NCBI RefSeq assembly: GCF_002269385.1
Contig: NZ_CP022957.1
Location: 2,289,001-2,353,000, forward strand
DNA length: 64,000 nucleotides
Source: Maribacter cobaltidurans
GTDB taxonomy: Bacteria > Bacteroidota > Bacteroidia > Flavobacteriales > Flavobacteriaceae
Direction of reading: 5' to 3'
Shown: in pieces, positions 4,854 through 36,810 of the stretch
Layout of the letters: the number at the start of each line of letters is the position of its first letter
Numbering within the stretch: the stretch's first letter is position 1
Notes under the pieces: model-generated
The model's input: the letters and a program-made list of their open reading frames with translations, nothing else
Database searches by the model: none
What the model was told of the DNA's origin: nothing
Made by a program: the position numbers and the translations under genes

Positions 4854-4914
4854 GACAGGTATACTTGTCTACAAGTGTCAAAATATTTTACAATATCTGT
4901 ACAAGTATTTTACA
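4854..4914 (+). promoter_or_regulatory. Upstream activator sites for the sigma-54 regulator (copy 1, before tolC)
   Basis: Two 17-bp inverted repeats are seen: TGTCAAAATATTTTACA (4876-4892) and TGTACAAGTATTTTACA (4898-4914), centres 22 bp apart. A further palindrome GACAGGTATACTTGTC (4854-4869) lies one more 22-bp step upstream and may be a third site. The same pair, with the same spacing, precedes P4, P6 and P12. The centre of the proximal site is 73 bp from the GG of the -24 element. Binding by the NtrC-family protein is inferred from location and symmetry. Confidence 0.7.
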
Positions 4915-4977
4915 GTACATTCAAATATTTGTTTTTGAATTTATTATAAAACACTGAAATACAGTTTTTTAAGATTG

Positions 4978-4992
4978 TGGCATATAAATAGT
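4978..4992 (+). promoter_or_regulatory. Sigma-54-like -24/-12 promoter for the tolC-led operon
   Basis: TGGCATATAAATAGT places GG at 4979-4980 and the -12 G at 4991, ten bases between, as in sigma-54 promoters (TGGCACnnnnnTTGC). The C of the -12 GC is replaced by T. Transcription would begin near 5003, which makes the ATG at 5021 the usable start of the tolC-like gene. Confidence 0.6.
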
Positions 4993-5020
4993 ATTGAGAA
5001 TGGCATACCATTTTAAAAAT

Positions 5021-6367
5021 ATGACGCATAAACTTAAAATAGCACTATTTACACTTCTTTTGATAGGGGTGAACATAAGCGCCCAAGAAAAATGGACGTT
5101 GGATGAATGTATTGCCTACGCACTTGAAAATAACTTACAGTTAAATGATTTTGAATATACCAATCAATCTAACAAGGAAACCTATGCTCAGTCCATAAGA
5201 AACTTGCTTCCCTCTGTTAATGCAAGTTCAAGTTACGTTATTAATTTTGGGCGTAGTACGGACCCCTTCACCAATGATATTGTAACTACAGAATTTTTCA
5301 GTAATAATTATTCTTTGGAATCATCCATAGATTTATTTCAGGGTTTCCAAAAGATTAATGCTATCAAGGCTTCCAAATTTTTATTTAAGGCCACCAAGGA
5401 GGAAGTATTACAACAGAAATTTCTCTTGGCCTTCAGGGTCATGCAAGCCTTTTATGACATTCAATTTTTTCAAGGCTTGGTAGCCATATCCAAGGAGCAA
5501 CTACAAGTTTCGAAATCGAACTATGATTTGGTAAAAAGACAAATAGATTTGGGGCTAAAGGCAGGTGCTGATTTATACGAAGCGGAGTCCTTATTGCTTA
5601 CGGATGAATTGAACCTTACCCAGAGTGAGAATCAATTGGCAGCAGCTGAACTTAAACTTATTCAAGAAATGAATCTTGAAGACACATCAGAAATTACTAT
5701 TCAAGAAGAATTGGCTGAGGTAGGGAAAAATTTTATTACGGACGAAATAAGGTCGGATTCCATTTACTCTACCGCTAGGGACTTTTTACCCTTAATTAAA
5801 GCCCAGGAATTTCGTGCCAAGGCTGCCAAGAAACAAATAGGTGTGGCCCGGGGAAGACTATATCCCTCTCTAACGCTTTTTGCGGGCATTGGCACGGGGT
5901 ATTTTGAAACCACAAGGGACACTCTGGGAAATACGTTGCCTTTTAGGGAACAATTCAGGGACAATACCAGCCAATATATTGGGGTAAGCCTTAATGTACC
6001 CATTAGCAATGGATGGTCCGCCAGATCAAGGATTAAACAATCCAAGATTGAAAGGTTAAGGGCGGAAAATAATTTGAAGACACAGGAACAGGTGCTCTTC
6101 CAGACCATTCAGCAATTGGTTCAGGACCACAATTCGCTCTTGGTGGAATTGGAGCAGAGCAACCAGAAAGTAGAAGCTCAAAACTTGGCATTTACCATTG
6201 CCCAAAAACGATATGAAAAAGGGTTGATCAATGCATTGGAGTTATTTACCGCAAAAAATCTGTTTGCCAATGCGCAAAATGAGAATTTGCAGGTAAGGCT
6301 AAGATCGGAAATCAATAAAAGCACTTTGGATTTTTACAGGGGACTTCCCGTATTTAACATTAACTAG
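5021..6367 (+). CDS. TolC-family outer membrane efflux protein
   Basis: This protein forms the outer-membrane channel of a tripartite exporter. From the ATG at 5021 it is 448 residues, with a signal peptide (MTHKLKIALFTLLLIGVNISAQ) cleaved around Ala-Gln-Glu before the mature WTLDECIAYALENN start typical of OEP proteins. Two long Gln/Leu/Ala-rich coiled-coil repeats follow, each about 200 residues, with the Pro-containing turns NLLPSVNAS and GRLYPSLTL marking the strand-helix junctions of the TolC fold. In-frame starts also exist at 4994 (TTG) and 5000 (ATG), but the sigma-54-like promoter would place the transcript start at about 5003, favouring 5021. It is the first gene of an export operon and is followed after 19 bases by the adaptor. 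Confidence 0.92.
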   Translation: MTHKLKIALFTLLLIGVNISAQEKWTLDECIAYALENNLQLNDFEYTNQSNKETYAQSIRNLLPSVNASSSYVINFGRSTDPFTNDIVTTEFFSNNYSLESSIDLFQGFQKINAIKASKFLFKATKEEVLQQKFLLAFRVMQAFYDIQFFQGLVAISKEQLQVSKSNYDLVKRQIDLGLKAGADLYEAESLLLTDELNLTQSENQLAAAELKLIQEMNLEDTSEITIQEELAEVGKNFITDEIRSDSIYSTARDFLPLIKAQEFRAKAAKKQIGVARGRLYPSLTLFAGIGTGYFETTRDTLGNTLPFREQFRDNTSQYIGVSLNVPISNGWSARSRIKQSKIERLRAENNLKTQEQVLFQTIQQLVQDHNSLLVELEQSNQKVEAQNLAFTIAQKRYEKGLINALELFTAKNLFANAQNENLQVRLRSEINKSTLDFYRGLPVFNIN

Positions 6368-6386
6368 AATTAGATTAAAGAATAGC

Positions 6387-7637
6387 ATGGATATACAATT
6401 AGAAAAGAAAAAAGGATTACGCCCCAAACATTATGGTTACATCGCCTTGGGCTTATTGTTATTATTTGTGGGGTATCAATTGCTTTTTGCGACTTCGGTT
6501 TCAACGTTTAGGACAGAAAAAGACAAGCTTTCAATCGCCGAAGTTTCCCAAGGTAAGTTTGATGATTACATTACTATCAATGGTAATGTGGCTCCTATCA
6601 CTACCATTTACATGGATGCCTATGAAGGAGGTAGGGTTACGGAAAAGTTGATTGAGGAAGGTGCCATGGTTAAAAAGGGAGATATTATCCTAAAGTTGGA
6701 GAATATGAACCTTTATGAGCAAATATTGGCCAGTGAAAGTAATTTGGCTTTAAAACAAAATGATCTCCGCTCAACAAAATTGACATTTGATTCCCGTCAA
6801 GTGGAGGGAAGACGTTCCTTGGCAACTGCCAGTACAGATTTGCAGCGGTTAAAAAGAAACTATGAGCAGAACAAGGCCTTGTACGAGGATGAGCTGATTT
6901 CTCAAGAGGAATATCAGCTGTCAAAGGAAAACTACGAACTTTCCAAGAAGCAATATGAGATTGTTAAGGTACAGACGGAGAACGATAATGAGTTGAGGGA
7001 AAAATCACTACCAGTTTTGGAGGCCGATTTAAATCGTATGCAGAAGACCTTGGGCATGGTATACCAACGATTAGATCATTTAAATGTGCGTGCCCCGGCC
7101 GATGGACAGTTAGGCTTTTTGGATGCGGAAATAGGTCAGAATATTTCCCAAGGTCAACGAATAGGACAGATTAACGTGCTTACGGATTATAAGATTGAAG
7201 CCGATATAGATGAGCACTACATTGACCGTGTGAAGAGAGATTTGAGCGCTGTTTTGGAACGGAACGGGAACGAATTTCCCCTAAAGGTTAGAAAGGTTTA
7301 TCCCGAGGTTAGAAATGGAAGGTTTAGGGTCGATTTGATTTTTACAGAAAATAAGCCGGAAACTATTCGTGCCGGGCAAAGCTACAATATCAGATTACAG
7401 TTAGGGGAATCCAGTGATGCCTTATTGGTTCCCAAAGGTAGTTTCTTCCAAAGTACGGGCGGTCAGTGGATATTTGTTGTGGGTCCAGATGGAGAAGAAG
7501 CCTTAAAAAGACCTATTAGAATCGGAAAACAAAATTCTCGCTATTACGAAGTTTTGGAAGGTTTGGATGCCGGTGAAAAGGTAATAACCAGTAATTATGA
7601 CAGCTTTGGGGAAGCTGAAAGAATAGTATTAAAATAA
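6387..7637 (+). CDS. HlyD/RND-type periplasmic adaptor (membrane fusion protein)
   Basis: This 416-residue adaptor would bridge the inner-membrane ABC complex and the TolC-type channel. One membrane helix lies near residues 16-37. It is followed by a beta-barrel/lipoyl segment (GNVAPITTIYMDAYEGGRV, EEGAMVKKGDIILKLEN), a long coiled-coil hairpin (about 105-225, including the LYEDELISQEEYQLSKENYE turn), the second lipoyl half (LNVRAPADGQLGFLDAEIGQ) and a C-terminal barrel/membrane-proximal domain ending in AGEKVITSNYDSFGEA. It lies between the tolC-like gene and the ATPase gene and shares their direction. This adaptor-channel-ATPase order is the common arrangement for MacAB-TolC-like systems. 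Confidence 0.92.
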   Translation: MDIQLEKKKGLRPKHYGYIALGLLLLFVGYQLLFATSVSTFRTEKDKLSIAEVSQGKFDDYITINGNVAPITTIYMDAYEGGRVTEKLIEEGAMVKKGDIILKLENMNLYEQILASESNLALKQNDLRSTKLTFDSRQVEGRRSLATASTDLQRLKRNYEQNKALYEDELISQEEYQLSKENYELSKKQYEIVKVQTENDNELREKSLPVLEADLNRMQKTLGMVYQRLDHLNVRAPADGQLGFLDAEIGQNISQGQRIGQINVLTDYKIEADIDEHYIDRVKRDLSAVLERNGNEFPLKVRKVYPEVRNGRFRVDLIFTENKPETIRAGQSYNIRLQLGESSDALLVPKGSFFQSTGGQWIFVVGPDGEEALKRPIRIGKQNSRYYEVLEGLDAGEKVITSNYDSFGEAERIVLK

Positions 7638-7699
7638 AAAAAACTGTCACATTCGGATATACTGGATGTCATTATAACAATCAATTAAATCAAAAAAGG

Positions 7700-8398
<699 letters not shown>

Positions 8399-8464
8399 CA
8401 GGGAGTTTATTCAATAGCCCTGAACACAGTCTAAGGGTCAATCAAAAAAAACAATCAAAAATGA

Positions 8465-9238
8465 ATGGTCATGAAAATTTTCAAAAGTAAGATCCCATCT
8501 CTTAAGACAATCTCAGTTGCATTCACTTTGTTGTTCGCAATTACATCGGTTTCTGCTCAGTCGGAAATAGACGTGGATCCTTTTGAAAAGGTAATCATAA
8601 GCCCACATATCGAAGTAACCTTTGTAGAAGGTGCTAAGGAAATGGTAGAAGTACATTCCAACACCCAACCACTTTCAAAACTGAATATTGAAGTAGTTGG
8701 TAAAACCCTTCGGATATACCTGGATGGTGCCAAAACCTATACGGAAAGTAAAGACGTAGAGGGTGATAATTATGATTACAAAGTTCCCATCTATAACGGC
8801 ACAGTGGTCAAGGCAACCGTTACGTATAAAAACCTGGAAGAATTGTCTTTGCGGGGAGAAGAAAAATTCATTTGTAAAAGTACAATCGACCAAAATGAAT
8901 TTACCCTTAAAATTTTTGGCGAATCTCAAGTGTATTTTAACGAAGTCAAATTAGGTGACTTGTCCACGACCATTTATGGAGAAAGTTTTCTTGAACTTAA
9001 GGAAGGTAGTATTGATAGCCAAAAAATTACCGCTTATGGAGAAACCAAGGTAAACACCTTGAATGTTAATTGCAACAAAGCAAAAATAACGGCCTACGGT
9101 GAAGGTAGTTATCGACTTTCGGTAAAGGACCGATTAAAAGTCACCGCCTTTGGCGAAGCTACCATTGCCTATGAAGGTTCGCCCGAAGTAAAAAAGGGAT
9201 TAGTTATTGGCGAGGCCACCATCCAGAAAATGAATTAG
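8465..9238 (+). CDS. Secreted DUF2807 (GIN-domain) protein inside the export operon
   Basis: This 257-residue protein has a signal peptide (about residues 3-32, ending TSVSAQ) and then a right-handed beta-helix-like domain. The repeats carry a recurring G-E pair on successive rungs (FGESQVYF, YGESFLEL, YGETKVNT, YGEGSYRL, FGEATIAY, IGEATI). This pattern is typical of DUF2807, the putative auto-transporter head GIN family, which is common in Bacteroidota and has no established function. The gene sits between the ATPase and the first permease, 3 bases before the latter, so it is co-transcribed with an exporter. Whether it is cargo, a periplasmic partner or an envelope-stress factor is unknown. 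ATG 8465 and ATG 8471 are both possible starts; the second gives the cleaner signal peptide (MKIFKSK). Confidence 0.85.
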   Translation: MVMKIFKSKIPSLKTISVAFTLLFAITSVSAQSEIDVDPFEKVIISPHIEVTFVEGAKEMVEVHSNTQPLSKLNIEVVGKTLRIYLDGAKTYTESKDVEGDNYDYKVPIYNGTVVKATVTYKNLEELSLRGEEKFICKSTIDQNEFTLKIFGESQVYFNEVKLGDLSTTIYGESFLELKEGSIDSQKITAYGETKVNTLNVNCNKAKITAYGEGSYRLSVKDRLKVTAFGEATIAYEGSPEVKKGLVIGEATIQKMN

Positions 9239-9241
9239 GCC

Positions 9242-11623
9242 ATGTTTAAGAACTACATAAAGATTGCCTGGAGAAATTTTATAAAAGGAAAATTATATTC
9301 TTTTATCAATTTATCAGGTTTGACTATTGGAATGACCTCTTTTATTCTGATAGCGCTTTTTGTTCAGTATGAAATCAGTTATGATAAGCAACATGAACAT
9401 GTAGATGATATTTACCGAGTGATTAGCGAACAACCGGGCAATATATATAAAGGAACCGATTTGTTTTCTGGCACTCCTTTTCCTTTGGGAACCGCTATGG
9501 TTGAAGATTTTCCGGAGGTAAAAGCTAAAACAGCCTTTGATTTACGAAAGAATCTGTTGAGTACGGATGAAGAGGCGTTTAATGAAAAAGGTATTTTTGC
9601 CGATAAGGGTTTTTTTGATGTATTTACCGTTGAGTTAATTTCAGGAAAGGGGAAATCAGCTTTGGAGGAACCATCCAATATTCTTGTCACCGAAAGTTTA
9701 GCCAAAAAGTATTTTGGAAATCAATCTCCATTAAACCAGAACATTACTTTTGATCGGAATACCCAATTTACGGTTAAAGGCGTTATTGCCGACCCGCCTA
9801 AAAATCAACATTTCAGCTACTCCTATATTGCTTCCGTCAGTGACGCCCCATACTATTCGACCAATAAAAGCGCATGGGGAAATAATACGGCCGTCACTTA
9901 TGTCAGATTGGAGAGCGGAACAGAGCCCGAAGAATTGGAAAATAAGCTTTTGGTGTACCAAAAGAATTATGAGGAAGAATATGCGAAGTATGGTCTTGAA
10001 CCCGCTATTTTTAGGCTGCAACCTTTAAAGGATATTCATCTCCACTCCAAAGTAAATTTTGAACTGGAACCTAATGGAGATATGAACTATGTTTACCTCT
10101 ATAGCTTGATCGCCTTGGTAATTTTATCATTGGCGTCCATTAATTATATGAATTTGACTACCGTAAGGGCGGCACAAAGAGCGAAGGAAATTGGAATAAC
10201 CAAGGTTTTGGGAGCCAAAAAACATCAACTTAAAGCTCAATTCTTGGGCGAATCATTTCTTTTTACCATTTTTAGTTTTGTACTTGCTTTAGGTTTGGCC
10301 TCGGTACTTTTGCCCTTATTCGGTCAATTGTTGGGCAAGAACATTCCTTTTCAATATGCTGGTAATACTTGGCTCCTTTTTGGCATGTTCGGTATGGCCA
10401 TTTTAACGGGGGGACTTTCCGGTCTTTATCCCGCAGTTTTCCTTTCCCGTGTTTCCCCCGTAAAAGCCTTTAAGGGTAATTTTTTAAAAAATAACGGAAG
10501 AAATGCGTGGATTAGAAAAGGTTTGGTAGTAGGGCAATTTACCGCGGCAATTGTTCTGGCTATAGGCAGTTTGATTATCTACCAACAACTACAATTTACG
10601 CAAGACAAAAACTTGGGTTATACTAAAGAACATATTGTTCACGTGCCATATTCCACCAATGAGATTGCCAGTAATGAAAATGTAATCCGAAATGAACTGC
10701 TTAAGAACCCCAGGATAAAAAAGGTTTCAATGAGCACTCAAATTCCGCTGAATTTTGATAATCAAGGTCCTATTTCTAATTGGGAGGGTAACACAACCAA
10801 GGAGTTGCTTGGAGTATACCGAACCTTTGTAGACTATGACTTTGTAGATGTTTTAGGTATGGAAATCGTAGAAGGCAGGGCATTTTCCAAGGATTTTGCA
10901 ACAGATGAAAATGAGGGATATATTATTAATGAAGCAGCTGCGAAGGCTTTAGGTTGGAAAACATCGGTAGGTAAGGAATTCGATGAGGGTCATGTAATAG
11001 GTGTTGTCAAGGATTTTCATATTCAAAAATTTAATCTAGCTATTGAACCTTTATATATGCGATTAAGACCGCAGTGGGCCAAAAATTTTGGTGAGGTAAT
11101 CATGACCATTGATGTGGAGAATTTTGAAGAAACCAAAAAATATATCACCTCAGTTTTGAATGCCGCAGTTCCTTTAGTGCCTTTTGATGTTAAATTTTTG
11201 GATGATACGTATGCCCAACTTTACGATAGTGAAATCAGATTGGGCAGCACATTCAATATTTTTACCGTATTGGCACTTATTATTGCGAGCATGGGTATGT
11301 TCGGTTTGGTATCCCATAGTATTTTGCAACGTACCAAGGAAATAGGTATACGAAAAGTTTTGGGTTCTTCCACTGTTGCCATCGTGTCACTCATCTCTAA
11401 AGATTATTTAAGGTTAGTGGTCATCGCATTGCTTACTGCGTGTCCAATGGCCTATTATTTTATGAACGATTGGCTTCAAGGTTTCGCTTACCGAATTGAA
11501 ATAGATTGGTGGGTGTTCCTACTGGTAGGTTTTATGGCATTAATAATCGCCATAGTTACCATCAGTTTTCAAAGTATAAAAGCATCTTTAGCAAACCCCG
11601 TAAAAAGCTTAAGGACGGAATAG
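9242..11623 (+). CDS. FtsX/MacB-type ABC permease P1 (double MacB_PCD-FtsX architecture)
   Basis: This 793-residue permease defines the architecture of the array: an internally duplicated MacB. Helix 1 (about 23-43) is followed by a first extracytoplasmic MacB_PCD domain (45-280), FtsX helices 2-4 (283-303, 337-360, 376-396), helix 5 (428-447), a second PCD (about 450-668) and helices 6-8 (about 672-693, 719-741, 757-777). A cytoplasmic coupling segment follows helix 2 (AKEIGITKVLGAKK, about 314-327) and another follows helix 6 (RTKEIGIRKVLGSS, from 697). Other family marks are ESLAKKYFGNQSPLNQ, VKGVIADPP, LQPLKDIHLHS and the C-terminal NPVKSLRTE. The MacB family exports peptides, antibiotics or lipoproteins; the substrate here is unknown. 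The gene begins 3 bases after the DUF2807 gene. Confidence 0.93.
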   Translation: MFKNYIKIAWRNFIKGKLYSFINLSGLTIGMTSFILIALFVQYEISYDKQHEHVDDIYRVISEQPGNIYKGTDLFSGTPFPLGTAMVEDFPEVKAKTAFDLRKNLLSTDEEAFNEKGIFADKGFFDVFTVELISGKGKSALEEPSNILVTESLAKKYFGNQSPLNQNITFDRNTQFTVKGVIADPPKNQHFSYSYIASVSDAPYYSTNKSAWGNNTAVTYVRLESGTEPEELENKLLVYQKNYEEEYAKYGLEPAIFRLQPLKDIHLHSKVNFELEPNGDMNYVYLYSLIALVILSLASINYMNLTTVRAAQRAKEIGITKVLGAKKHQLKAQFLGESFLFTIFSFVLALGLASVLLPLFGQLLGKNIPFQYAGNTWLLFGMFGMAILTGGLSGLYPAVFLSRVSPVKAFKGNFLKNNGRNAWIRKGLVVGQFTAAIVLAIGSLIIYQQLQFTQDKNLGYTKEHIVHVPYSTNEIASNENVIRNELLKNPRIKKVSMSTQIPLNFDNQGPISNWEGNTTKELLGVYRTFVDYDFVDVLGMEIVEGRAFSKDFATDENEGYIINEAAAKALGWKTSVGKEFDEGHVIGVVKDFHIQKFNLAIEPLYMRLRPQWAKNFGEVIMTIDVENFEETKKYITSVLNAAVPLVPFDVKFLDDTYAQLYDSEIRLGSTFNIFTVLALIIASMGMFGLVSHSILQRTKEIGIRKVLGSSTVAIVSLISKDYLRLVVIALLTACPMAYYFMNDWLQGFAYRIEIDWWVFLLVGFMALIIAIVTISFQSIKASLANPVKSLRTE

Positions 11624-11646
11624 TTTTTCAAATAAAAACCGGAATC

Positions 11647-14028
11647 ATGATTAAAAACTATATCAAAATCGCTTGGAGAAATATTAAGGGCAACAGATTG
11701 TTTTCATTGATTAATATTATTGGTCTTTCCATAGGGTTGGCCATTGTTATTTTGTTGTTTTTGTTCATTTCGCATGAACAGAGTTTTGATACTATGTTCC
11801 CTAAAAAGGACAGGATTCATAGGGTTTTGGTAGAAACAGATGGTGATTTTGGTTATGAAACTTGGGCCAAGGCACCCCCTGTTGTAGCAAGTAGCTTGCA
11901 AAAAGAAGTGACCAATGTGGAAAAAGCGGCCAGAATGTTGAAGCATAATTTTGGTCGTACGGCATCGTTACGTGTTAACGATCAGAATTTTACGGAGGAC
12001 CGGTTCTATTGGGTAGATAAAGAGTTGTTGTCCATATTTGATATTTCCATATTAAAAGGAAATAAGGTAGGTGCCTTGGATCGGCCAAATACGGTAATCA
12101 TCTCGGAAAAGACCGCACGCATGTATTTTGGAAACGACGATCCTGTTGGCCAGGTACTACTCGTTGATGGTAGCAGAAAGCTAGAGGTAACAGGGGTGTA
12201 TCAGGATTTTCCTGAAAACAGTACTTTGGATGCCAATGTAATGGCCTCCAGTAATGGTTATTGGTTTTATGAGAATACGTCTTGGAGCAATTCTAGTTTT
12301 GAAACCTATTGCCTTCTAAAGAAAAATGTTTCTCTTGAAGCTACTTTGATTCAAGTGGACAAAATGTTGGATGCCAACGTACCCAAAGAGAACCAATGGT
12401 ACTCCCTTTCCTTGCAGCCTTTGAGCAAAGTACATTTGTATTCCGCTTCTTTCGGCAATACCTATACATCCCGCGTTGGGGACATCAATGAAGTGAGAAA
12501 TCTAGGTTATTTGGCTGTACTTATACTATTGATTGCCTGCATGAACTATATGAACCTTACCACAGCACGATCTCAAAAGCGCTCAAAAGAAGTGGGTATC
12601 AGTAAAACCCTCGGAGCAACCTCTCAGTCTTTGATAGGTAGGTTCTATATGGAAACCGGATTAATTACAGCCATTTCAATGATGTTGGGTTTGTTTTTGG
12701 CAATTATGGTGTTACCTGCCTTTAATGTCTTGACCGACCAACAACTAAAAATCGACCTTTTGCTTAACGGTAAATTTTTAGCTGTTCTCGTTATCATTTG
12801 GGCCATAACTACTTTTTTATCGGGAATATACCCAGCGCTTTATTTGTCCCGATTCTTACCAAAACAAATCTTATCCCCTTCCTTAAAACAGGGTAAAGGA
12901 AACTTGGTGGTAAGAAAGGGATTGGTGGTATTGCAGTTTGCTGCTTCAGCATCTTTGATTGTGGGCGTTTTGGTTATCTATCAACAATCCCAATTTATTC
13001 AAAACAAGAATTTAGGCTTTGCTCCGGAAAACGTAATGGCCATATCTGTAAGGGGATTACGAGGAATAGAGAATCAAAATGCCATGGCGCAAGAACTAAA
13101 GAGTTTAACCGATGTTACTTCGGTGGCCATGGCCCAAGGATATCCCAGTGTTGACGTAAGCGGACGTACCTTAAGAAAAAATCAATCGGAAGAACATGGG
13201 TTGAATATCCAGACCAATGTGGCAGATGCTGAAATAATTGATGTCTTAAATTTGAAACTTTTGGCCGGACAAAAACTTCCAGCACATAAAAGTGAAGGCG
13301 ATACACTAGTGGAAGTTGTACTTAACAAAAAAGCTATTGATTATTTAGGATTTTCTCCTGAGGAAGCCATTGGTAAAGAGGTGTATATCGGAGTTCCCAA
13401 TACCATTGTAGGCGTAGTGGACAATTTTAATTATGAATCGTTGCGCCAACCTATCGGTGCCTATGCATTTCATAATGGCAATAGTGAAGGCAAATCCTTT
13501 ATGTTGGTGCGGTTTAAAACGGGAAATATTTCCAACACGTTGTCGGGTTTAAAAACAGCTTTTAACAAAGTAGCCCCTAATCTAGATTTTGACTATACCT
13601 TCCTAGACCAGAATCTAGAAAACCTTTATGCCCGTGAAAAAAGGGCCGGGCAAATAAGTATAGTATTCTGTATGCTGGCCATTTTCGTGGCCGCCTTGGG
13701 CTTGTTCGGTTTGGCCGCATTTACTGCAGAACAGCGAAGAAAAGAAATAGGAATACGCAAGGTTTTGGGCGCTTCGGTTGCCAGTGTAGCGCAAATGTTA
13801 TCCAAGGATTTTGCAAAATTGGTGCTCATTGCATTACTGTGCGGTTTTCCCTTGGCCTATTTTCTTATGGAAAATTGGTTAGAAGGTTTTGCTTATCGCA
13901 TACAAATTCATTGGTGGGTATTTATCATATCTGCAATTGTAGCCTTGGGTATAGCCCTGTTAACGGTCAGTTTTCAATCCATTAGGGCTGCACTGACCAA
14001 CCCCGTAAAAAGCTTACGGACGGAATAA
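11647..14028 (+). CDS. FtsX/MacB-type ABC permease P2
   Basis: This is a 793-residue paralogue of P1, starting 23 bases after its stop. The ATG at 11647 is used because it gives MIKNYIKIAWRN, the N-terminus shared across the array; the frame is open back to 11506, but that part overlaps the end of P1. Helix 1 lies near 18-42. Coupling segments are SKEVGISKTLGATS after helix 2 and RRKEIGIRKVLGAS after helix 6; the first lacks the usual Arg (GISK instead of GVRK). The first PCD has the TARMYFGNDDPVGQ and VTGVYQDFPENS landmarks and LQPLSKVHLYS before helix 2. It ends NPVKSLRTE. A 203-base gap with no clear terminator follows. Confidence 0.92.
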   Translation: MIKNYIKIAWRNIKGNRLFSLINIIGLSIGLAIVILLFLFISHEQSFDTMFPKKDRIHRVLVETDGDFGYETWAKAPPVVASSLQKEVTNVEKAARMLKHNFGRTASLRVNDQNFTEDRFYWVDKELLSIFDISILKGNKVGALDRPNTVIISEKTARMYFGNDDPVGQVLLVDGSRKLEVTGVYQDFPENSTLDANVMASSNGYWFYENTSWSNSSFETYCLLKKNVSLEATLIQVDKMLDANVPKENQWYSLSLQPLSKVHLYSASFGNTYTSRVGDINEVRNLGYLAVLILLIACMNYMNLTTARSQKRSKEVGISKTLGATSQSLIGRFYMETGLITAISMMLGLFLAIMVLPAFNVLTDQQLKIDLLLNGKFLAVLVIIWAITTFLSGIYPALYLSRFLPKQILSPSLKQGKGNLVVRKGLVVLQFAASASLIVGVLVIYQQSQFIQNKNLGFAPENVMAISVRGLRGIENQNAMAQELKSLTDVTSVAMAQGYPSVDVSGRTLRKNQSEEHGLNIQTNVADAEIIDVLNLKLLAGQKLPAHKSEGDTLVEVVLNKKAIDYLGFSPEEAIGKEVYIGVPNTIVGVVDNFNYESLRQPIGAYAFHNGNSEGKSFMLVRFKTGNISNTLSGLKTAFNKVAPNLDFDYTFLDQNLENLYAREKRAGQISIVFCMLAIFVAALGLFGLAAFTAEQRRKEIGIRKVLGASVASVAQMLSKDFAKLVLIALLCGFPLAYFLMENWLEGFAYRIQIHWWVFIISAIVALGIALLTVSFQSIRAALTNPVKSLRTE

Positions 14029-14162
14029 AAGCCCCTCTATCCTTATGACATCTCCTAGGAAGGGAGAGAAAAAGGAATTGACAAGTTTGATGTGGATTTG
14101 AGGGTCAAGAAGTTAGTTATAAGACAGTAGACAAAAGAAAAATAAAACAACCATGTCGCTTG

Positions 14163-14215
14163 CTCCCCTCCGCCTGTGCTGAGCGCAGTCGAAGTATTGG
14201 AGGGGGTGGGGGAGG
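14163..14215 (+). repeat. Dispersed CTGAGCG-type repeat inside a G/C-rich hairpin, upstream of P3
   Basis: TGTGCTGAGCGCAGTCGAAG (14175-14194) is a copy of the short repeat found before six permease genes. This copy is framed by CCCCTCC (14165-14171) and GGAGGGG (14199-14205), which can pair, and is followed by more G-runs up to 14215. The whole sits 17 bases before the P3 start codon and stands out in AT-rich DNA. The rest of the 203-base gap after P2 shows no promoter I can recognise. Confidence 0.6.
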
Positions 14216-14231
14216 CCAAAAAACGAGAATT

Positions 14232-16684: not shown

Positions 16685-16723
16685 TGTAAATAAACTGTAC
16701 ACTTTCTGTCAAAAAAATTTACA
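16685..16723 (+). promoter_or_regulatory. Upstream activator sites (copy 2, before P4)
   Basis: TGTAAATAAACTGTACA (16685-16701) and TGTCAAAAAAATTTACA (16707-16723) are 17-bp inverted repeats with TGT/ACA ends, centres 22 bp apart. The proximal centre is 63 bp from the GG of the -24 element. They match the sites before tolC, P6 and P12 in form, order and spacing. Confidence 0.7.
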
Positions 16724-16776
16724 CCTTTAAAAGTGAAGAATTAGTCAAAACACTGTAAAACAGAGGGTTGAATAGT

Positions 16777-24419: not shown

Positions 24420-24436
24420 TCATCAAACCACAGATT

Positions 24437-26818: not shown

Positions 26819-26839
26819 ATTAAACGGTATCAATTGAGG

Positions 26840-26860
26840 TCACTGAGCGTAGTCAAAGTA
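26840..26860 (+). repeat. Degenerate CTGAGCGTAGTC repeat, upstream of P8
   Basis: TCACTGAGCGTAGTCAAAGTA is a variant of the repeat that has CAAAG in place of CGAAG. It lies 30 bases before the P8 start. Confidence 0.55.
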
Positions 26861-26890
26861 AAATACTAGTACAATCAAAAAACGAGTATC

Positions 26891-29311: not shown

Positions 29312-29334
29312 AACATTAATCAAAAACAAAAAAC

Positions 29335-31695
29335 ATGTTTAAAAACTATTTGAAAATCGCATGGAGAAATTTGGTTCGTAACAAGAGCTTTTCATTGTTG
29401 AATATTTTAGGTTTGTCCATTGGCCTCACCGTAACCGCACTGATTCTGTTATGGGTCAATTACGAAATGGGTTTCAATCAGTTTCATGAGAACAAAGACC
29501 GTATTTACCAGGTCTATAATAAGTATGAGGTTGATGGCGAAATTTGGACATGGAACTCCACCCCCAAGGTTATGGCTACGGCCATTAAAACAGATTATCC
29601 TGAAGTGGAGGAGGTTTCACGCTATTTCTACGAGAATACGTTTTTATTCAGTAAAGGCGATAAGAACTTAAAATCTACGGGAACCATTGTGGACCCTAGT
29701 TTCTTAAAAATATTCAGTTTTCCATTGGTGGAGGGAAACATAGAAACCGTTCTTGATGATGTAAACGCCTTGGTCGTTACCGAAACCTTTGCAAAAAAGA
29801 TGTTTGGAAATGAACCGGCAGTAGGCCAAATCGTGAAAATGGACAACGCTAATAATTTCAAGGTAACAGGAGTTTTAAAAGATCTTCCATCAAATACCGA
29901 ATTCAATTTCGAATACTTACTGCCTTGGGCCTACCTGAAACAAAAGGGATGGGATGATCAGAATTGGAGAAACAACTCCATCGCCACATACGTCCTATTA
30001 AAAGAAGGTACAAATTACACCTCATTTTCAGAAAAGATTAAGACGCTACGAAAAACTTACGATAAGGATGCCCCAAACATGGTCACTTATCTCTATCCAT
30101 ATAAACGTTCACACCTTTATTCTGAATTTGAGAATGGGGTGGAGGTTGGCGGGTTGATCGATGTGATTCGTCTTTTCACTATTATAGCCATTATCGTTCT
30201 GGTTATCGCTTGTATCAACTTCATGAACCTGAGTACCGCCCGTAGTGAAAAAAGAGCAAAAGAGGTTGGCGTGCGAAAGGTGGTTGGTGCCCGGAAAAAA
30301 GCATTGATATTCCAGTTTATAGGGGAGTCTTTGTTAATCTCTACATTGGCGGCCATAGTGGCTTTGATTGTTTTGGTACTGGTTCTCCCGGCATTCTCCC
30401 AACTCATTGATCGGGAGTTAAGCATTGATTGGTTAAACCCCATGTTTTGGGCTATGACCTTATCCATAATTCTTTTAACCGGCGTGCTTGCAGGAAGTTA
30501 TCCTGCCCTTTATTTATCTTCATTTAAACCTACAGCGGTACTCAAGGGTACGTTCAGCAAAATCAATACGTTGATTACACCTCGCAAGGTCTTGGTGGTG
30601 CTACAGTTTGCGGTCGCCATTGTATTGATTACCGCCACCCTTGTGATAAAACAACAGATCAGCTCCGTTCAAAACCGCAAGTTGGGGTATAACAAGGACC
30701 AGCTTATTTATGTGCAAATGGAGGGTGATATTGAAAAAAATTACACCAATATTTCTAGCGAACTTTTGGACGGTGGTATTGCCTCATCGATCTCAAAGAC
30801 GAATTCTCCCATAACGGAAAGCTGGAGTAATTCTTGGGGTTTAGATTGGAAAGGAAAAAGCGAGGACAACAAAACTTTGGTGCATAGGCTTGTAGCTGAT
30901 AATAATATCATTAAAACGATGGGATTACAGCTTTTGGAAGGGAGGGATTTGGATTTAAAACAATATCCTACCGATTCCACGGCCATGATTTTGAACGAGT
31001 CTGCCGTTGCACTTATGGGGTTTGATGATCCTTTGGGACAAGTAGTCAGGGACAACGGTATTGAGTGGCATATTGTTGGCGTGGTGGAGGATTTTGTGTA
31101 CAACTCCCCTTTTCAAAAAATAGAGCCTATGGTAATCGAGGGTGCTAAAGGATGGTTCGAAATGGTTCATATAAAGTTTAATAAGGACAAGCCCATTGCA
31201 TCTAATTTGGCATCTACAGAAGAAATCTTTAAAAAATACAATCCAAACTATCCCTTTAACTATGAATTTGTTGATGCCGACTATGCTCAAAAATTCATAA
31301 GTGAGCAACGTATAGAAAAATTGGCCAGCTTATTTACCCTTTTGACCATCTCAATTTCTTGTTTGGGACTCTTTGGCTTGGCTAGTTATATGGCCCAAAA
31401 TAGAATTAAGGAAATAGGGGTTCGCAAAGTGTTAGGTGCTTCCGTAAACGGTATTACGGCCTTGTTGTCAAAAGATTTTTTGAAATTGGTCTGCATTTCA
31501 CTATTTATTGCCATACCCGTTTCATGGTATGTGATGAACCGTTGGTTGCAAGATTTTGCATATCGAATAGAACTTTCATGGTGGATTTTTGGTTTGGCCG
31601 GTCTAGCAGCGCTTGGCATCGCGTTTATTACGGTCAGCTACCAGGCAATCAAAGCTGCAAGATCAAACCCGGTTAAAAGTTTGCGTGCAGAGTGA
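29335..31695 (+). CDS. FtsX/MacB-type ABC permease P9
   Basis: At 786 residues this is the shortest member of the array, with all eight predicted helices present. It starts MFKNYLKIAWRNLVRNKS; helix 1 reads LGLSIGLTVTALILLWVNYE. Coupling segments are AKEVGVRKVVGARKK and RIKEIGVRKVLGAS. The segment before helix 2 departs from the LQPLxDIHL form (LYPYKRSHLYSEFENG), which is close to P3 and P10 in ending with a (G/K)xxxGG turn. In the second PCD the sequence WSNSWGLDWKGK recalls WSNRGGFTWEGK of P10. It ends NPVKSLRAE and is followed by an 82-base gap. Confidence 0.92.
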   Translation: MFKNYLKIAWRNLVRNKSFSLLNILGLSIGLTVTALILLWVNYEMGFNQFHENKDRIYQVYNKYEVDGEIWTWNSTPKVMATAIKTDYPEVEEVSRYFYENTFLFSKGDKNLKSTGTIVDPSFLKIFSFPLVEGNIETVLDDVNALVVTETFAKKMFGNEPAVGQIVKMDNANNFKVTGVLKDLPSNTEFNFEYLLPWAYLKQKGWDDQNWRNNSIATYVLLKEGTNYTSFSEKIKTLRKTYDKDAPNMVTYLYPYKRSHLYSEFENGVEVGGLIDVIRLFTIIAIIVLVIACINFMNLSTARSEKRAKEVGVRKVVGARKKALIFQFIGESLLISTLAAIVALIVLVLVLPAFSQLIDRELSIDWLNPMFWAMTLSIILLTGVLAGSYPALYLSSFKPTAVLKGTFSKINTLITPRKVLVVLQFAVAIVLITATLVIKQQISSVQNRKLGYNKDQLIYVQMEGDIEKNYTNISSELLDGGIASSISKTNSPITESWSNSWGLDWKGKSEDNKTLVHRLVADNNIIKTMGLQLLEGRDLDLKQYPTDSTAMILNESAVALMGFDDPLGQVVRDNGIEWHIVGVVEDFVYNSPFQKIEPMVIEGAKGWFEMVHIKFNKDKPIASNLASTEEIFKKYNPNYPFNYEFVDADYAQKFISEQRIEKLASLFTLLTISISCLGLFGLASYMAQNRIKEIGVRKVLGASVNGITALLSKDFLKLVCISLFIAIPVSWYVMNRWLQDFAYRIELSWWIFGLAGLAALGIAFITVSYQAIKAARSNPVKSLRAE

Positions 31696-31738
31696 CACAT
31701 TTTAAAAAAAAGATAGTCTTTATAAAAAACATCAACCT

Positions 31739-31763
31739 GTGCTGAGCATAGTCGAAGCATCAA
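31739..31763 (+). repeat. Dispersed CTGAGCATAGTCGAAG repeat, upstream of P10
   Basis: GTGCTGAGCATAGTCGAAGC plus ATCAA, with one G-to-A change from the common form. It ends 14 bases before the P10 start. Confidence 0.65.
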
Positions 31764-31777
31764 AGAAATCATCAATC

Positions 31778-34177
31778 ATGTTTAAAAACTATCTAAAAAT
31801 CGCTTGGAGAAACCTTCTAAAAAACAAAGGTTATACTTTAATCAATGTTGGTGGGCTGGCATTGGGCATGGCCGTCACCTTGATTATTGGCCTTTGGATA
31901 CAGGACGAACTTTCATACAACGGTTATTTTAAGAACAAGGAAAAAATCGCCCAGATTTATCAATCCCAAACATTTAATGGAAAAACAGGTTCAGGGCCGG
32001 CCATACCAAGACCCCTTGAAAAAGCATTGAGAGACGGTTACAGCGACAATTTTGAGCATTTGATCATGTGTTCCTGGACCAATGACCATTACCTTAAATA
32101 TGGGGAGAAAAGTATTTCCAGATCGGGCAATTATATGCAGCGTGTAGGTCCGGAACTTTTTAATCTGGAAATTATAAAAGGAGAAAAGGACGGATTAAGG
32201 GAAATCAATTCCATAATGCTATCGGAGTCCACGGCCAATGCACTCTTCGGAAGTGAAGACCCAATCGGTAAAATCGTAAGGGTAAGCAATGAGCACGATA
32301 TGAACGTAAGTGCCGTCTACAAGGATATCCCGTTTAATAATTCCTTTAATGATACAGATTGGATTATTTCGTGGGAAAAGTATTTGGCCAATAATGAATG
32401 GATACGAAATGCGGAGGACCAGTGGGGCAATAATTCCTTTCAAATGTTTGTTCAAATAGCAGATAACACCTCCATTGATGCAGTTACAAGAACCATAAAG
32501 GATGTAAAGAAAAATTTGAATGAGGATACGGCGGAATTCAATCCCCAGATTTTCCTCTTTCCAATGAAAGATTGGTACCTAAGAAGCAGTTTCGAAAACG
32601 GAAAGCAAGTAGGCGGTCGCATAAAATATGTATGGCTTTTTGGTATTATCGGTGCATTTGTGTTACTGTTGGCCTGTATCAACTTTATGAACTTAAGTAC
32701 GGCTCGCTCTGAAAAACGGGCCAAGGAGGTGGGAATCCGGAAATCTATCGGTTCCCAAAGGGGACAATTGATCTATCAATTTTTGAGCGAATCCTTTTTG
32801 GTCGTACTATTCGCCTTTTTCTTGGCACTATTGATCGTACTCCTATCCCTTAACGGTTTTAACGAACTGGCAAGAAAGGAGATTTCCTTTCCTTGGGGTA
32901 ACGGGCTTTTTTGGTTGGTATCCTTAATTTTTATTTTGTTCACGGCGTTACTGGCAGGTAGCTATCCTGCCTTATATCTTTCGTCCTTTAGACCTGTGGA
33001 TGTGCTGAAAGGAACTTTTAAAGTGGGGAAATATGCCGGATTGCCCAGAAAAATATTGGTGGTATTGCAGTTTACGGTTTCGGTGGCATTTATTATAGGA
33101 ACGGTCATTGTGATGCAACAGATCAATCATGCCAAAAATAGGCCGATTGGTTATGACAAGGAAGGATTGATACAGGTTCCAACGTTCAGTCAGGATTTTA
33201 ACGGTAAGTATGATTTGATGCGAACCGAATTTCTAGAATCCGGAGCAGTGGTGGAAATGTCTTCTTCTAGCAGTCCTACCACTCGGATCTGGTCCAACAG
33301 GGGAGGTTTTACATGGGAAGGAAAGCCGGAGGGGTTTCAAGAAGACCTAGCTTGGACCGAGGTCTCACCGGAATATGCAAAGTCACTCAACCTAAAAATA
33401 GTAGAGGGCAGGGATTTTTCAAGGGAGTACGCCACAGATTCTTTGGGTGTGCTTATCAATGAAACGGCCAAAAAATATTTAGGAATGCCCGATCCAGTAG
33501 GTAAATTTTTAAAGGACGACGATGAGGAAGATCCAAATCCACCTTTAAAAATTATTGGCGTGGTGCAGGATATGATTACCCAATCGCCATACGAGCCGGT
33601 AAAACAAGGTGTTTACGTGTATGACCGGTATAACAATTCCAGCTATTACAACCTAAGGTTAAATCCGCAGCAAAGTGCCAATCAGAATATCGCGGTCATT
33701 GAGAGGGTCTTTAAAGAACATTTTCCTGCAATACCATTTGAGTATGAGTTTATAGACGCGGAGTATGGCGAAAAATTTGCCTCCGAGGAGCGAATAGGTA
33801 CACTTTCGGGCATATTTACCGCCTTGGCCATTCTGATCAGCTGTTTGGGACTTTTTGGGCTGACATCCTTCGTTGCGGAGCAGCGCAAGAAGGAAATTGG
33901 TGTTCGTAAGGTGTTGGGCGCATCTATATTCAACGTATGGAACATGCTTTCAAAAGACTTTTTAAAACTGGTCATCATTTCTTGTTTTATCGCTGTCCCC
34001 ATTGCCTATTTCATTATGAACGGATGGCTTCAGGAATATCCTTATCGAGTTGTCTTAAAGTGGTGGATTTTTGCATTGGCTATGTTGGGAGCACTCGGTG
34101 TAACCTTACTTACCGTAAGTTTTCAGGCGATTAAAGCCGCCAAGGCAAACCCGGTAAAAAGTTTACGAACGGAGTAA
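31778..34177 (+). CDS. FtsX/MacB-type ABC permease P10
   Basis: This is a 799-residue permease. The frame extends 39 bases upstream through the repeat (MLSIVEASKK), so the start is set at 31778, giving MFKNYLKIAWRNLLKNKG. Coupling segments are AKEVGIRKSIGSQRG, almost the P8 version, and RKKEIGVRKVLGAS. Helix 1 contains GGLALGMAVTLIIGLWIQDE. PCD landmarks are ESTANALFGSEDPIGK and VSAVYKDIPFNNSF; the segment before helix 2 is YLRSSFENGKQVGGRI, P3/P9-like. An acidic run, KDDDEEDPNPP, sits in the second PCD. It ends NPVKSLRTE, and P11 begins 49 bases later. Confidence 0.92.
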   Translation: MFKNYLKIAWRNLLKNKGYTLINVGGLALGMAVTLIIGLWIQDELSYNGYFKNKEKIAQIYQSQTFNGKTGSGPAIPRPLEKALRDGYSDNFEHLIMCSWTNDHYLKYGEKSISRSGNYMQRVGPELFNLEIIKGEKDGLREINSIMLSESTANALFGSEDPIGKIVRVSNEHDMNVSAVYKDIPFNNSFNDTDWIISWEKYLANNEWIRNAEDQWGNNSFQMFVQIADNTSIDAVTRTIKDVKKNLNEDTAEFNPQIFLFPMKDWYLRSSFENGKQVGGRIKYVWLFGIIGAFVLLLACINFMNLSTARSEKRAKEVGIRKSIGSQRGQLIYQFLSESFLVVLFAFFLALLIVLLSLNGFNELARKEISFPWGNGLFWLVSLIFILFTALLAGSYPALYLSSFRPVDVLKGTFKVGKYAGLPRKILVVLQFTVSVAFIIGTVIVMQQINHAKNRPIGYDKEGLIQVPTFSQDFNGKYDLMRTEFLESGAVVEMSSSSSPTTRIWSNRGGFTWEGKPEGFQEDLAWTEVSPEYAKSLNLKIVEGRDFSREYATDSLGVLINETAKKYLGMPDPVGKFLKDDDEEDPNPPLKIIGVVQDMITQSPYEPVKQGVYVYDRYNNSSYYNLRLNPQQSANQNIAVIERVFKEHFPAIPFEYEFIDAEYGEKFASEERIGTLSGIFTALAILISCLGLFGLTSFVAEQRKKEIGVRKVLGASIFNVWNMLSKDFLKLVIISCFIAVPIAYFIMNGWLQEYPYRVVLKWWIFALAMLGALGVTLLTVSFQAIKAAKANPVKSLRTE

Positions 34178-34226
34178 TTATTTAGTTAAATAACGGGAGC
34201 TAAAACACTATAAAAACGACACAGCT

Positions 34227-36617
34227 GTGAATTTTGTAAAAATGGCATTTAGACGTCTGTTCCGTAAAGGGGAGCAGACCACTACACGTATCATATCCTT
34301 AATTGCTGGGCTAGCCTTTGGAATGTTATTATTGTCCGAGGTACTATACTATTACAGTTATGATGGTTTTTATCCAGATGCGGAACGCCTGTATGTAGTG
34401 CATGAAAACTTTAATATGGATACCTCCTCTGAGGAGCTCGATACCTCTTCCAGGGTAAGTGGGGCCATTGCTCCGGCGCTTCGTGAGGAAGTGCCCGGTG
34501 TAGAGATGGCTACACGTTTCAATCCCATGGGAAAATCCGTTTTTTACACAGAGGACAAAAAAAACTACGAAGCGGATTTTTCATTGGCGGACGAATATGC
34601 CTTTGACGTCTTACCAAGAACCATGATAAGTGGTAATGCCAAGGAAGTTCTGAGCAGTCCGATGAGCTGCATGGTTTCCGATAAGTTGGCTTCCCAAATG
34701 GGAGGAAACGTTATGGGCAAGGTTATTGAACTTAAGAAATATCCCGGGAAAAAGCTTACGATCAATGGTGTTTTCAAAGCCATTCCTGAAAATACCAATT
34801 ATAATTATGATGTACTTGTCTCCATGGTTTCCACCAAGGAATTTATGTGGGACGGTACCCAAAATTGGATGGGCAACGACCGTTATTATGCCGTGGTAAA
34901 ACTGGAGGAAGGTGTTTCGCCGACAGATTTGGCGCCCGCAATACGTAAGATGCAGGAAAAAAATCAGGATATTGCCAAATTGGAAGAGGAACAGCCCGGT
35001 ATCATCTTTAAATATAGTTTAAAGCCCATCCAAAGTTTATATGTGGACGATGTAAAGAATATGATATTGATTCTTACGACCATAGCCCTAACCGTATTGA
35101 TAGTGTCATTGTTCAATTATCTTTTGCTCACCATGAGTGTTTTGGTGAACAGGGCTAAAAGCTCGGCTATACATAAAACCTGTGGAGCGGGATCCTTGAA
35201 TCTGCAAAGGCTAATTTTTTCCGAGACTGCCCTGTTGTTCTTGATGTCCATTTTAGGAGCCTTTTTGACACTATGGTTAATAAAACCCTTTGCCGAGGTG
35301 CAGTTGGGACACAAACTCTCCTCAGTTCTGAATCCTCAAGTGGTATGGCCCTTATTATTTTTTATGGCCCTGTTGATAGGAGCCGCAAGTTACTTTCCGG
35401 GAAGGTTTTATTCGCGTATTCCAGTGGCTACCGCTTTCCGTAACTATCAACAAAAAAAAGGCAAATGGAAATTGGCCCTATTGGCCTTTCAATTCGTGGG
35501 AGCTACTTTTATATTGACCATGTTGACCATTGTGGTCATGCAGTACAATAGTGTAATAGGAGCGGATCATGGGTATGGCACCAAGGGCATTTATTTCGGT
35601 TCCACTTCGGGTATGGAAGGGAGTAAAGTAAATACCCTTATACATGAACTTGAGGGAATTCCCGGTGTTGATATGGTGGGTATTGGAGAAAAAATTCCTT
35701 TGGGTGGTGCTCCAGGTAACAACGTCAAGTCCGCCGATGGAAAAGAATTGTTCAACGTAGCAGATTTTTATACAATAGATGAGAATTATATGTCCATTTT
35801 GGGTATACCTATAACTGAAGGGGAGAATTTTTCAGCAGAGAATTCTGCTGTGAACGATATGCTCATCAGCAAAAAAGGGGCCGATAAACTCGTGCTGAAC
35901 GGATGGAAGGAAATCGTAGGGCAACCGGTGGACATTACCCAACACGGACCAGCTACGGTTCGGGGAATCTTTGATGATTTCGTAATCAACACACTAACAC
36001 AACCCGATGACCGTCCGGCAATTTTCCATTATGCCCCGCAAGCAAAGTTTGTGGCAGATAAGGAAGAAGATGCCTCATTTGCCTTCCATTTGCTTATAAA
36101 GACAAAAGAAGGCGTTGGAGCGGATATGCTTCAAAAAATTACGGACGTTTTCAACGAATATTTACCCTATCGTGATGCAGTGGTAAAAAACTTGGATGCA
36201 GAATTGGTGTACGCCTACCAAAGTGAGAAAGGTTTTAGAAATGCAATTTTGGCGGGTAGTGCCATTATTTTGTTAATTACCATTATAGGTCTCTTTGGTT
36301 ATACGGCCAATGAATCCGTAAGACGAAAGAAGGAACTGGCTATTAGGCGTATCAATGGTGCCACTTTAGGTGATATTTTAAAATCCTTTCTCGCCGATCT
36401 TGAATTTATGGCGATACCTGCCGTTCTATTGGGATTGGCAGGGGCATGGTTCACTGCAAATAAATGGATGGAAAACTTTGCTTTCAAGACAGAATTACAT
36501 TGGGGAATCTTTTTGGCCAGTAGTTTTTTTGTGCTATTGCTCATTGGGTTGATTGCAACGATCAATTATGTTAAAGCCGCAAACCAGAATCCCGTTGAGT
36601 CTTTAAGGGCGGAGTAA
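34227..36617 (+). CDS. Divergent FtsX/MacB-type permease P11 with altered coupling motifs
   Basis: This 796-residue protein keeps the eight-helix, two-PCD plan but is the most diverged copy. The GTG at 34227 is preferred over the ATG at 34242 because it yields NFVKMAFRR, aligning with NYLKIAWRN of its relatives. After helix 2 the usual AKEVGVRKxLG reads AKSSAIHKTCGAG, losing the Glu-Val-Gly core; after helix 6 it reads RRKELAIRRINGAT, again without the Gly. PCD landmarks are also worn (SDKLASQMGGNVMGK), and SRIPVATAFRNYQ replaces SRFxPVxVLKG. It ends NPVESLRAE. It may be served poorly by the ATPases, or have become a sensor or regulatory subunit; that is inference. Its reading frame is intact. 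Confidence 0.88.
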   Translation: MNFVKMAFRRLFRKGEQTTTRIISLIAGLAFGMLLLSEVLYYYSYDGFYPDAERLYVVHENFNMDTSSEELDTSSRVSGAIAPALREEVPGVEMATRFNPMGKSVFYTEDKKNYEADFSLADEYAFDVLPRTMISGNAKEVLSSPMSCMVSDKLASQMGGNVMGKVIELKKYPGKKLTINGVFKAIPENTNYNYDVLVSMVSTKEFMWDGTQNWMGNDRYYAVVKLEEGVSPTDLAPAIRKMQEKNQDIAKLEEEQPGIIFKYSLKPIQSLYVDDVKNMILILTTIALTVLIVSLFNYLLLTMSVLVNRAKSSAIHKTCGAGSLNLQRLIFSETALLFLMSILGAFLTLWLIKPFAEVQLGHKLSSVLNPQVVWPLLFFMALLIGAASYFPGRFYSRIPVATAFRNYQQKKGKWKLALLAFQFVGATFILTMLTIVVMQYNSVIGADHGYGTKGIYFGSTSGMEGSKVNTLIHELEGIPGVDMVGIGEKIPLGGAPGNNVKSADGKELFNVADFYTIDENYMSILGIPITEGENFSAENSAVNDMLISKKGADKLVLNGWKEIVGQPVDITQHGPATVRGIFDDFVINTLTQPDDRPAIFHYAPQAKFVADKEEDASFAFHLLIKTKEGVGADMLQKITDVFNEYLPYRDAVVKNLDAELVYAYQSEKGFRNAILAGSAIILLITIIGLFGYTANESVRRKKELAIRRINGATLGDILKSFLADLEFMAIPAVLLGLAGAWFTANKWMENFAFKTELHWGIFLASSFFVLLLIGLIATINYVKAANQNPVESLRAE

Positions 36618-36703
36618 GCATGGCTCAACACCAAGAATTTTAAAGGATACCTTATAAAATGGGTCAAAGTAATTTTGGTAACCCATTGTACTTTGAAAGT
36701 CGT

Positions 36704-36742
36704 TGTAAATATATTGTACATGTTTTGTCCAAATATTTTACA
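36704..36742 (+). promoter_or_regulatory. Upstream activator sites (copy 4, before P12)
   Basis: TGTAAATATATTGTACA (36704-36720) and TGTCCAAATATTTTACA (36726-36742), centres 22 bp apart; the proximal centre is 63 bp from the -24 GG, exactly as before P4 and P6. The flanking sequence is otherwise little conserved, so these blocks look selected. Confidence 0.72.
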
Positions 36743-36795
36743 GTCTCTTGGTCTTGATGAAATTTAAGTGTTTTAAAATCAGACGTTTATTGAAG

Positions 36796-36810
36796 TGGCA
36801 TGAAATTAGT
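36796..36810 (+). promoter_or_regulatory. Sigma-54-like -24/-12 promoter for P12
   Basis: TGGCATGAAATTAGT has GG at 36797-36798 and the -12 G at 36809. Its TGGCAT and AGT ends are the same as those of the tolC promoter. Transcription would start near 36821, about 37 bases before the P12 ATG. Confidence 0.6.

Follow-up and report, generated by a model that had tools for sequence, protein, structure and literature searches.

The locus described here raises the question of how a large set of export genes lying beside a two-component system could be controlled, and by which protein. The window, a 64,000-nucleotide stretch of the Maribacter cobaltidurans genome (contig NZ_CP022957.1), had received a first-pass annotation in which the NtrC-type regulator encoded at 3446-4810 was proposed to control at least four units over a 42-kb locus. 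The proposal was supported by the domains of the regulator, its co-occurrence with the operators, the export genes targeted and the presence of rpoN, from which binding to the operators, the transcript starts and a dependence on sigma-54 are predicted. Judged from its sequence, the locus very probably represents a local, self-contained two-component sigma-54 regulon in which enhancer, loop and promoter are helically phased.

Gene content of the locus and its operator pairs

The following genes and gene units were identified (window positions, strand in brackets).

2097..3443 (-): histidine kinase with PAS and HATPase domains (Pfam, sequence, relatives)
3446..4810 (-): NtrC-type response regulator, predicted operator binder, with receiver, sigma-54 AAA+ (loop GSFTDA) and Fis-type HTH domains (Pfam)
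5021..16610 (+): unit 1, with TolC, HlyD, ABC ATPase, DUF2807 protein and three FtsX/MacB permeases
6387-7637 (+): HlyD of unit 1 (domain search)
7700-8398 (+): ABC ATPase of unit 1 (domain search)
16860..21730 (+): unit 2, with two FtsX/MacB permeases
21984..36617 (+): unit 3, with six FtsX/MacB permeases
36858..47320 (+): unit 4, with four FtsX/MacB permeases and the second ABC ATPase (46655-47320)

The four units jointly span the 42-kb locus with one TolC, one HlyD, two ATPases and 15 MacB/FtsX permeases, and MacB_PCD was matched by all 15 permeases in the genome search. The best NCBIfam matches of the permeases tested (four of the 15), the adaptor and the ATPases were the ADOP permease TIGR03434 and the DarBCD exporter. 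All of these scores were below the curated cut-offs: 262-338 bits for ADOP (cut-off 622.3) and 145-177 for the DarBCD permease (cut-off 700) in the four permeases, 212.1 for the DarBCD adaptor (cut-off 450), and 301.7 and 243.4 for the DarBCD ATPase (cut-off 375). The listed tolC start, a TTG at 4994, lies upstream of the predicted transcript start near 5004, and the ATG at 5021 is therefore the likelier start of the gene. Rfam and tRNA scans of the window returned nothing.

Two further observations concern the coding units. The DUF2807 (head GIN domain) protein is encoded at 8465-9238, between the ATPase and the first permease of unit 1. The 17-mer CTGAGCGTAGTCGAAGC (0-2 mismatches) occurred six times on the + strand just upstream of permease starts (14179, 16826, 19257, 21945, 26843, and 31742), and its exact form three times in the genome, all in the window; it could be a leader element common to these genes or could have been left by duplication.

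Upstream of the units, the eight 17-bp sites reported by the first-pass annotation were all recovered at the starts listed below. Each reads TGT-N11-ACA, and they form four pairs with a start-to-start distance of 22 bp and a gap of 5 bp.

4876..4892 (no strand): operator, unit 1, distal (motif position and genome scan, as for all eight)
4898..4914 (no strand): operator, unit 1, proximal
16685..16701 (no strand): operator, unit 2, distal
16707..16723 (no strand): operator, unit 2, proximal
21804..21820 (no strand): operator, unit 3, distal
21826..21842 (no strand): operator, unit 3, proximal
36704..36720 (no strand): operator, unit 4, distal
36726..36742 (no strand): operator, unit 4, proximal

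The genome, a single 4.64-Mb contig, was scanned for pairs at 22-bp spacing using a strict pattern that fixes 12 outer letters (TGT and ACA of both sites). Four matches were obtained, all at this locus, and the reversed pattern used as a control gave 0 in the whole genome, which excludes chance. A 16-letter version with up to 2 mismatches added one match in the whole genome, at an unlike place (reversed control: 6), and the strict and relaxed scans together therefore show that the pair marks this locus only. In the whole-genome scan at up to 2 mismatches no pair was found near other MacB-type genes (e.g., near 0.40 and 0.94 Mb). The search string originally suggested, TGTnnAAAnnnTTnTACA, proved unsuitable: with 18 letters it was one too long, and at 2 mismatches it returned 20 matches against 16 expected by chance, and a single match coincided with any of the eight sites.

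The spacing was equally strict elsewhere. In 116 loci (1.93 Mb; 80 picked by their regulator and most of the others by the pair itself) 272 single sites were found, and all 96 of 96 distinct neighbours within 17-120 bp were exactly 22 bp apart. The consensus over 108 promoters was approximately TGTMAAAWWWTTKKACA, twice per promoter, and the two palindromic sites lie ~88-120 bp upstream of the predicted transcript start.

Promoters and a third palindromic element

The following promoter-associated features were assigned.

4840..4854 (-): conserved block TAAANCTACAAATTG between the pair and the regulator gene (tolC promoter stack)
4947..4971 (no strand): third element, 25-bp imperfect palindrome, unit 1 (tolC promoter stack, matrix score)
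4978..4993 (+): -24/-12 promoter, unit 1, TGGCAT...TAG (motif position, promoter alignment)
5001..5007 (+): second TGGCAYA, spanning the predicted transcript start (letters conserved in tolC promoters only)
16746..16770 (no strand): third element, unit 2 (matrix score)
16777..16792 (+): -24/-12 promoter, unit 2 (motif position)
21865..21889 (no strand): third element, unit 3 (matrix score)
21896..21911 (+): -24/-12 promoter, unit 3 (motif position)
36765..36789 (no strand): third element, unit 4 (matrix score)
36796..36811 (+): -24/-12 promoter, unit 4 (motif position)

As previously noted, TGGCAY-N5-T-N-G follows every pair in the window (at 4978, 16777, 21896, and 36796), with 73, 63, 63, and 63 bp between the proximal site centre and the GG in units 1-4. 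On its own the motif TGGCAY-N5-T-N-[CG] was unremarkable, with nine + strand matches in the window, five of them within genes. An alignment was read in which 108 distinct promoters with both pair and TGGCAY were stacked and in which T12 and G14 of the -12 half had not been used for row selection. Both letters were invariant in the 61 tolC promoters of the alignment and were present in 94% (T12) and 89% (G14) of the other 47 rows, some of which are chance or sister rows. Position 13 was A in 77%, C in 11% and G in 11% of the 61 tolC promoters, a position that is T in the -12 element TTGC. Likewise, the -12 half in the window is T-[A/G]-G, not TTGC. At the -12 place, groES has CTGC in its promoter in this genome.

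Distances were determined in 102 promoters, i.e., the 108 without the + strand rows of L016 and L107 (opposite strand), L056 (contig end) and three sister-branch rows. The pair was 62-64 or 72-75 bp from the -24 box and at no other distance: the proximal centre lay 72-75 bp from the GG in the 78 tolC promoters, and among the 24 permease/ATPase promoters 62-64 bp in 13 and 72-74 bp in 11. The gaps between the three parts fall into classes ~10 bp apart, which is one helical turn.

These data bear on the alternative that the sites bind a repressor or a regulator independent of sigma-54, TGGCAY being a by-product of conserved leaders. This reading would be favoured by the departure of the -12 half from TTGC and by the second TGGCAYA across the start in tolC promoters. 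It is opposed by the two narrow distance classes in the 102 promoters, by the unselected and yet invariant T and G in the 61 tolC promoters, by the sigma-54 AAA+ domain of the partner protein, and by rpoN, present once in the genome (one PF04552 match, 175.8 bits), and we regard it as very improbable.

The second TGGCAYA is located 23 bp past the -24 box; most of its letters were 85-93% conserved in the 61 tolC promoters and were not conserved in the other 47 alignment rows, some tolC promoters among them. It was considered as a second sigma-54 promoter and rejected because G is missing from its -12 place (position 36: A64 T23).

The stacked tolC promoters also contained an element that the first-pass annotation had overlooked. 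This third element is an imperfect palindrome, TAA-N5-TGA-N3-TCA-N5-TTR, whose position relative to the -24 box is fixed, the centre lying 19 bp before the T of TGGCA. A matrix trained on the 78 tolC promoters only was applied to the 24 permease/ATPase promoters, with 80 offsets tried per promoter, and the best offset was -33 in 22, -34 in one and -32 in one; offset -33 held in both distance classes of these promoters. Among 128 TGGCAY-N5-TNG places without an exact pair just six scored above 4, and all six have a pair that deviates by one or two letters. A score of at least 12 was reached at 227 positions of the 80 regulator loci, of which 82 were at the right distance from TGGNA and ~80 away from any promoter, and because of the latter the letters of the third element alone are not specific.

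Two assignments of the element were rejected. It was not filed as a plain IHF site because the strict form WATCARNNNNTTR (WATCARN4TTR) stood at the fixed place in just 28 of the 102 promoters; the resemblance was retained, and the genome has two HU/IHF-family genes (genome positions 4441145 and 2204903). Nor is it part of all sigma-54 promoters of the genome, since the groES promoter, the one promoter compared, is without it (best score -4.4 over 80 offsets). No TGG[CT]A[CT] box was found within ~1 kb upstream of grpE. Two other enhancer-binding proteins (EBPs; genome positions 522354 and 2492832) are encoded within ~3-6 kb of grpE and groES, which fits a report on Flavobacterium psychrophilum that chaperones are under sigma-54 control (PMC9723704).

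The regulator, its relatives and their operators

For comparison, the best 80 among the regulator matches listed were taken as related loci, with regulators 78-97% identical; the closest regulators were mostly from Maribacter. The AAA+ loop was GSFTDA in 66 and GAFTDA in 14 of the 80, not GAFTGA, with the F, the T and the last A kept, and GENGTGKE was present in 80/80. The kinase was found in 79 of the 80 loci; its two TM helices joined by a loop of ~5-6 residues (layout inspected in 20 of the 79) correspond to an intramembrane-sensing layout as read from the sequence. On the regulator strand the conserved block at 4840-4854 holds TAGATTTA, which is similar to the sigma-A -7 box TAnnTTTG (PMC9723704), and may possibly be the regulator's own sigma-A promoter. 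A sigma-A promoter overlapping the operator was dropped as a candidate, the conserved TAGNTTTA block being 29-36 bp from the pair.

In 77 of the related loci enough upstream DNA was available (L026, L050, and L072 were excluded for having too little). The exact pair was located between the regulator gene and the divergent tolC in 73 of them, and the remaining four had one letter changed in one site. In 71 of the 73 tolC loci TGGCAY followed the proximal centre at 72-74 bp; the other two, from Zobellia, have CGGCAY at 73 in its place. Among 149 genomes of the family, the strict pair was detected in 17 (control: 0 in each) and a regulator of at least 62% identity in 19 (next best listed: at most 50%). 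Sixteen genomes had both (hypergeometric P = 1.3e-17, kinship among genera ignored). The one genome with a pair and without a close regulator (G142) has unlike letters, and of the three regulator genomes without an exact pair, two carry it in a form with 1-2 letters altered and the third is truncated by a contig end.

The targets were consistent as well, across many genera. The 16 other family genomes contain 31 pairs, and 29 of these stand in front of a gene for TolC, an FtsX permease or an ABC ATPase, with a TGGCAY or CGGCAY box (in one case CGGAAC) at a distance of 62-75 bp; the two pairs without an export gene at the right place were that of G142 and one of six in G018 (L112). In a redundant set of 122 pair matches the gene downstream was TolC in 57, HlyD of a tolC operon in 31, FtsX in 25, and the ATPase in one; three matches preceded a regulator gene (L009, which is G142, and L043 and L075 on the wrong strand) and five preceded none of these (L016 +, L031, L056, L107 +, and L112). 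At one locus (L106, genome G129) the gene behind the switch is neither tolC nor a permease gene but encodes an ABC ATPase with 90% identity to that at 46655-47320. In a sample of the phylum the pair occurred in 8/395 genomes, four of which, our own included, had operator-like letters and belonged to the same family. A wider spread in the phylum was rejected, as the other four genomes had no TGGCA box at 60-76 bp; in one of these four (G348) a TGGCA box was at 53 bp, with no export gene found there.

The repetition of the switch could also be a leftover of tandem duplication kept by recent descent and not by function. Units 2-4 do share their site letters and the 63-bp spacing and form a tandem array. 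On the other hand, the parts stay in register before tolC across loci with regulators of 78-97% identity, most of the intervening positions carrying little information, and the same switch precedes dispersed permeases in other genomes. The six sites of G018 are distributed over three contigs, and an export gene still follows five of them, which argues against mere local duplication. Of all the alternatives, this one is in our view the least credible.

That the neighbouring regulator is the protein which reads the pairs is an assignment by neighbourhood and co-occurrence, because the genome contains four strong matches to PF00158 (11 in total, seven of them weak). Another of its EBPs might therefore bind the pairs while the neighbouring regulator acts elsewhere, and binding of the latter to the sites is itself a prediction. 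Against this stand the presence of the regulator in 16 of the 17 pair genomes, the position of the pair beside its gene in 73 of the 77 loci, and the make-up of the other three strong PF00158 proteins, two with another recognition helix and one showing no terminal HTH. Moreover, recognition helix and operator letters both differ in a sister branch. We consider the involvement of another EBP improbable, if the least so of the alternatives weighed, and retain the neighbouring regulator as the putative binder.

The sister branch comprises 30 related regulators among the matches listed, 45-50% identical, for which 14 loci were fetched. In all 14, genes for a kinase, HlyD, ATPase and FtsX adjoin the regulator gene, and the HTH ends in [TS]R[AT]ALYRR, as opposed to SRQTLYNK in the main branch. 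Palindrome pairs exactly 22.0 bp apart were found in nine of the 14 loci with spacings of 20-24 allowed, eight of these nine resembling the 16-bp TGTTCG-N4-CGAACA. Two further loci (L132 and L133) have a 22-bp pair by the outer letters, and L125, L127, and L130 have none by either rule. The third element scored best at -33 in six sister loci (weakly in L128 and L130) and at -43/-42 in six, i.e., one helical turn further from the -24 box, whereas L123 and L131 gave no clear best place. Operator letters thus vary with the regulator branch while spacing and third element are common to both, and it is this that most strongly suggests a common factor as the reader of the third element.

These loci may tentatively be viewed, with slightly less than even confidence, as a flavobacterial family of export switches with fixed geometry and changeable address, in which a 22-bp pair with regulator-specific letters, a shared loop-fixing palindrome read by a common factor, and gaps of whole turns are combined. 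If so, sigma-54 enhancers would have in the third element a new component, symmetric and close to the promoter, that is matched to a non-standard -12 box.

Proposed mechanism and comparison with known systems

From the arrangement of these parts we infer the following course of events. With two membrane helices and a link of ~5 residues, hence almost no outside loop, the kinase probably responds to the membrane or to the transporter, by analogy with the sensing proposed for Bce kinases (PMC10314905); the signal could be a stress on the membrane or the exporter's own state. The kinase would phosphorylate the adjoining NtrC-type regulator, dimers of which would occupy both TGT-N11-ACA palindromes; the 22-bp spacing, about two helical turns, places these on the same side of the helix. 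The bound regulator would then assemble its AAA+ ring and reach the sigma-54 polymerase at TGGCAY-N5-TNG via a DNA loop. The 25-bp palindrome most likely holds a DNA-bending dimer that would shape this loop, and the gap classes differ by whole turns as looping would require. The expected output is four transcripts, one per copy of the switch.

An address code for sigma-54 control would thereby become available in a phylum where, according to the literature search, few EBPs have known sites, and for this export locus, large and so far uncharacterised, the regulon could be predicted from sequence. Related regulators with different helices and operators and with the same 22-bp spacing and phasing constitute a natural experiment, and the sister systems would allow tests of how the loop for sigma-54 activation is built and of what binds the third palindrome.

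The general kind of system, a paired-site sigma-54 enhancer, is already known. As in NtrC/ZraR-type enhancers, there is a response-regulator EBP, two upstream palindromes, a -24/-12-like promoter and rpoN. Unlike in these, the site centres are 22 bp apart, the -12 half is T-[A/G/C]-G, the loop is GSFTDA and a third palindrome stands in the gap. In the classical glnA enhancer the site centres are 32 bp apart. The IHF consensus is WATCAANNNNTTR, and as in IHF-assisted sigma-54 promoters an element whose right half resembles this consensus lies between enhancer and promoter; the third element differs in being symmetric, in being centred just 19 bp before the -24 box, and in carrying the strict consensus in just those 28 of 102 promoters.

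A literature search in which few subscription journals were covered found no description of the operator, the regulator, the exporter or the third element. TGT and ACA half-sites at distances of 9, 11 or 12 bp are known as operators of Desulfovibrio EBPs (PMC4641369). The sites reported here share the 11-bp distance with these and differ from the operators described there in their exact doubling at 22 bp, their targets and their phylum. For Bacteroidia, a PSSM survey placed FtsX-type permeases under sigma-54 and claimed the first evidence for this (PMC12316311). In F. psychrophilum sigma-54 promoters were mapped and one was mutated; the printed selection of targets includes chaperones, gliding and envelope genes among others and contains no such exporter (PMC9723704). 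Finally, the locus resembles in its layout the Bce-type modules of Firmicutes, in which a membrane kinase adjoins FtsX-type ABC permeases (PMC10314905); the kinase of the present locus has two TM helices joined by a very short loop. The locus is distinguished from these modules by its NtrC-type sigma-54 regulator, its TolC and HlyD partners, and its 15 double MacB-type permeases.
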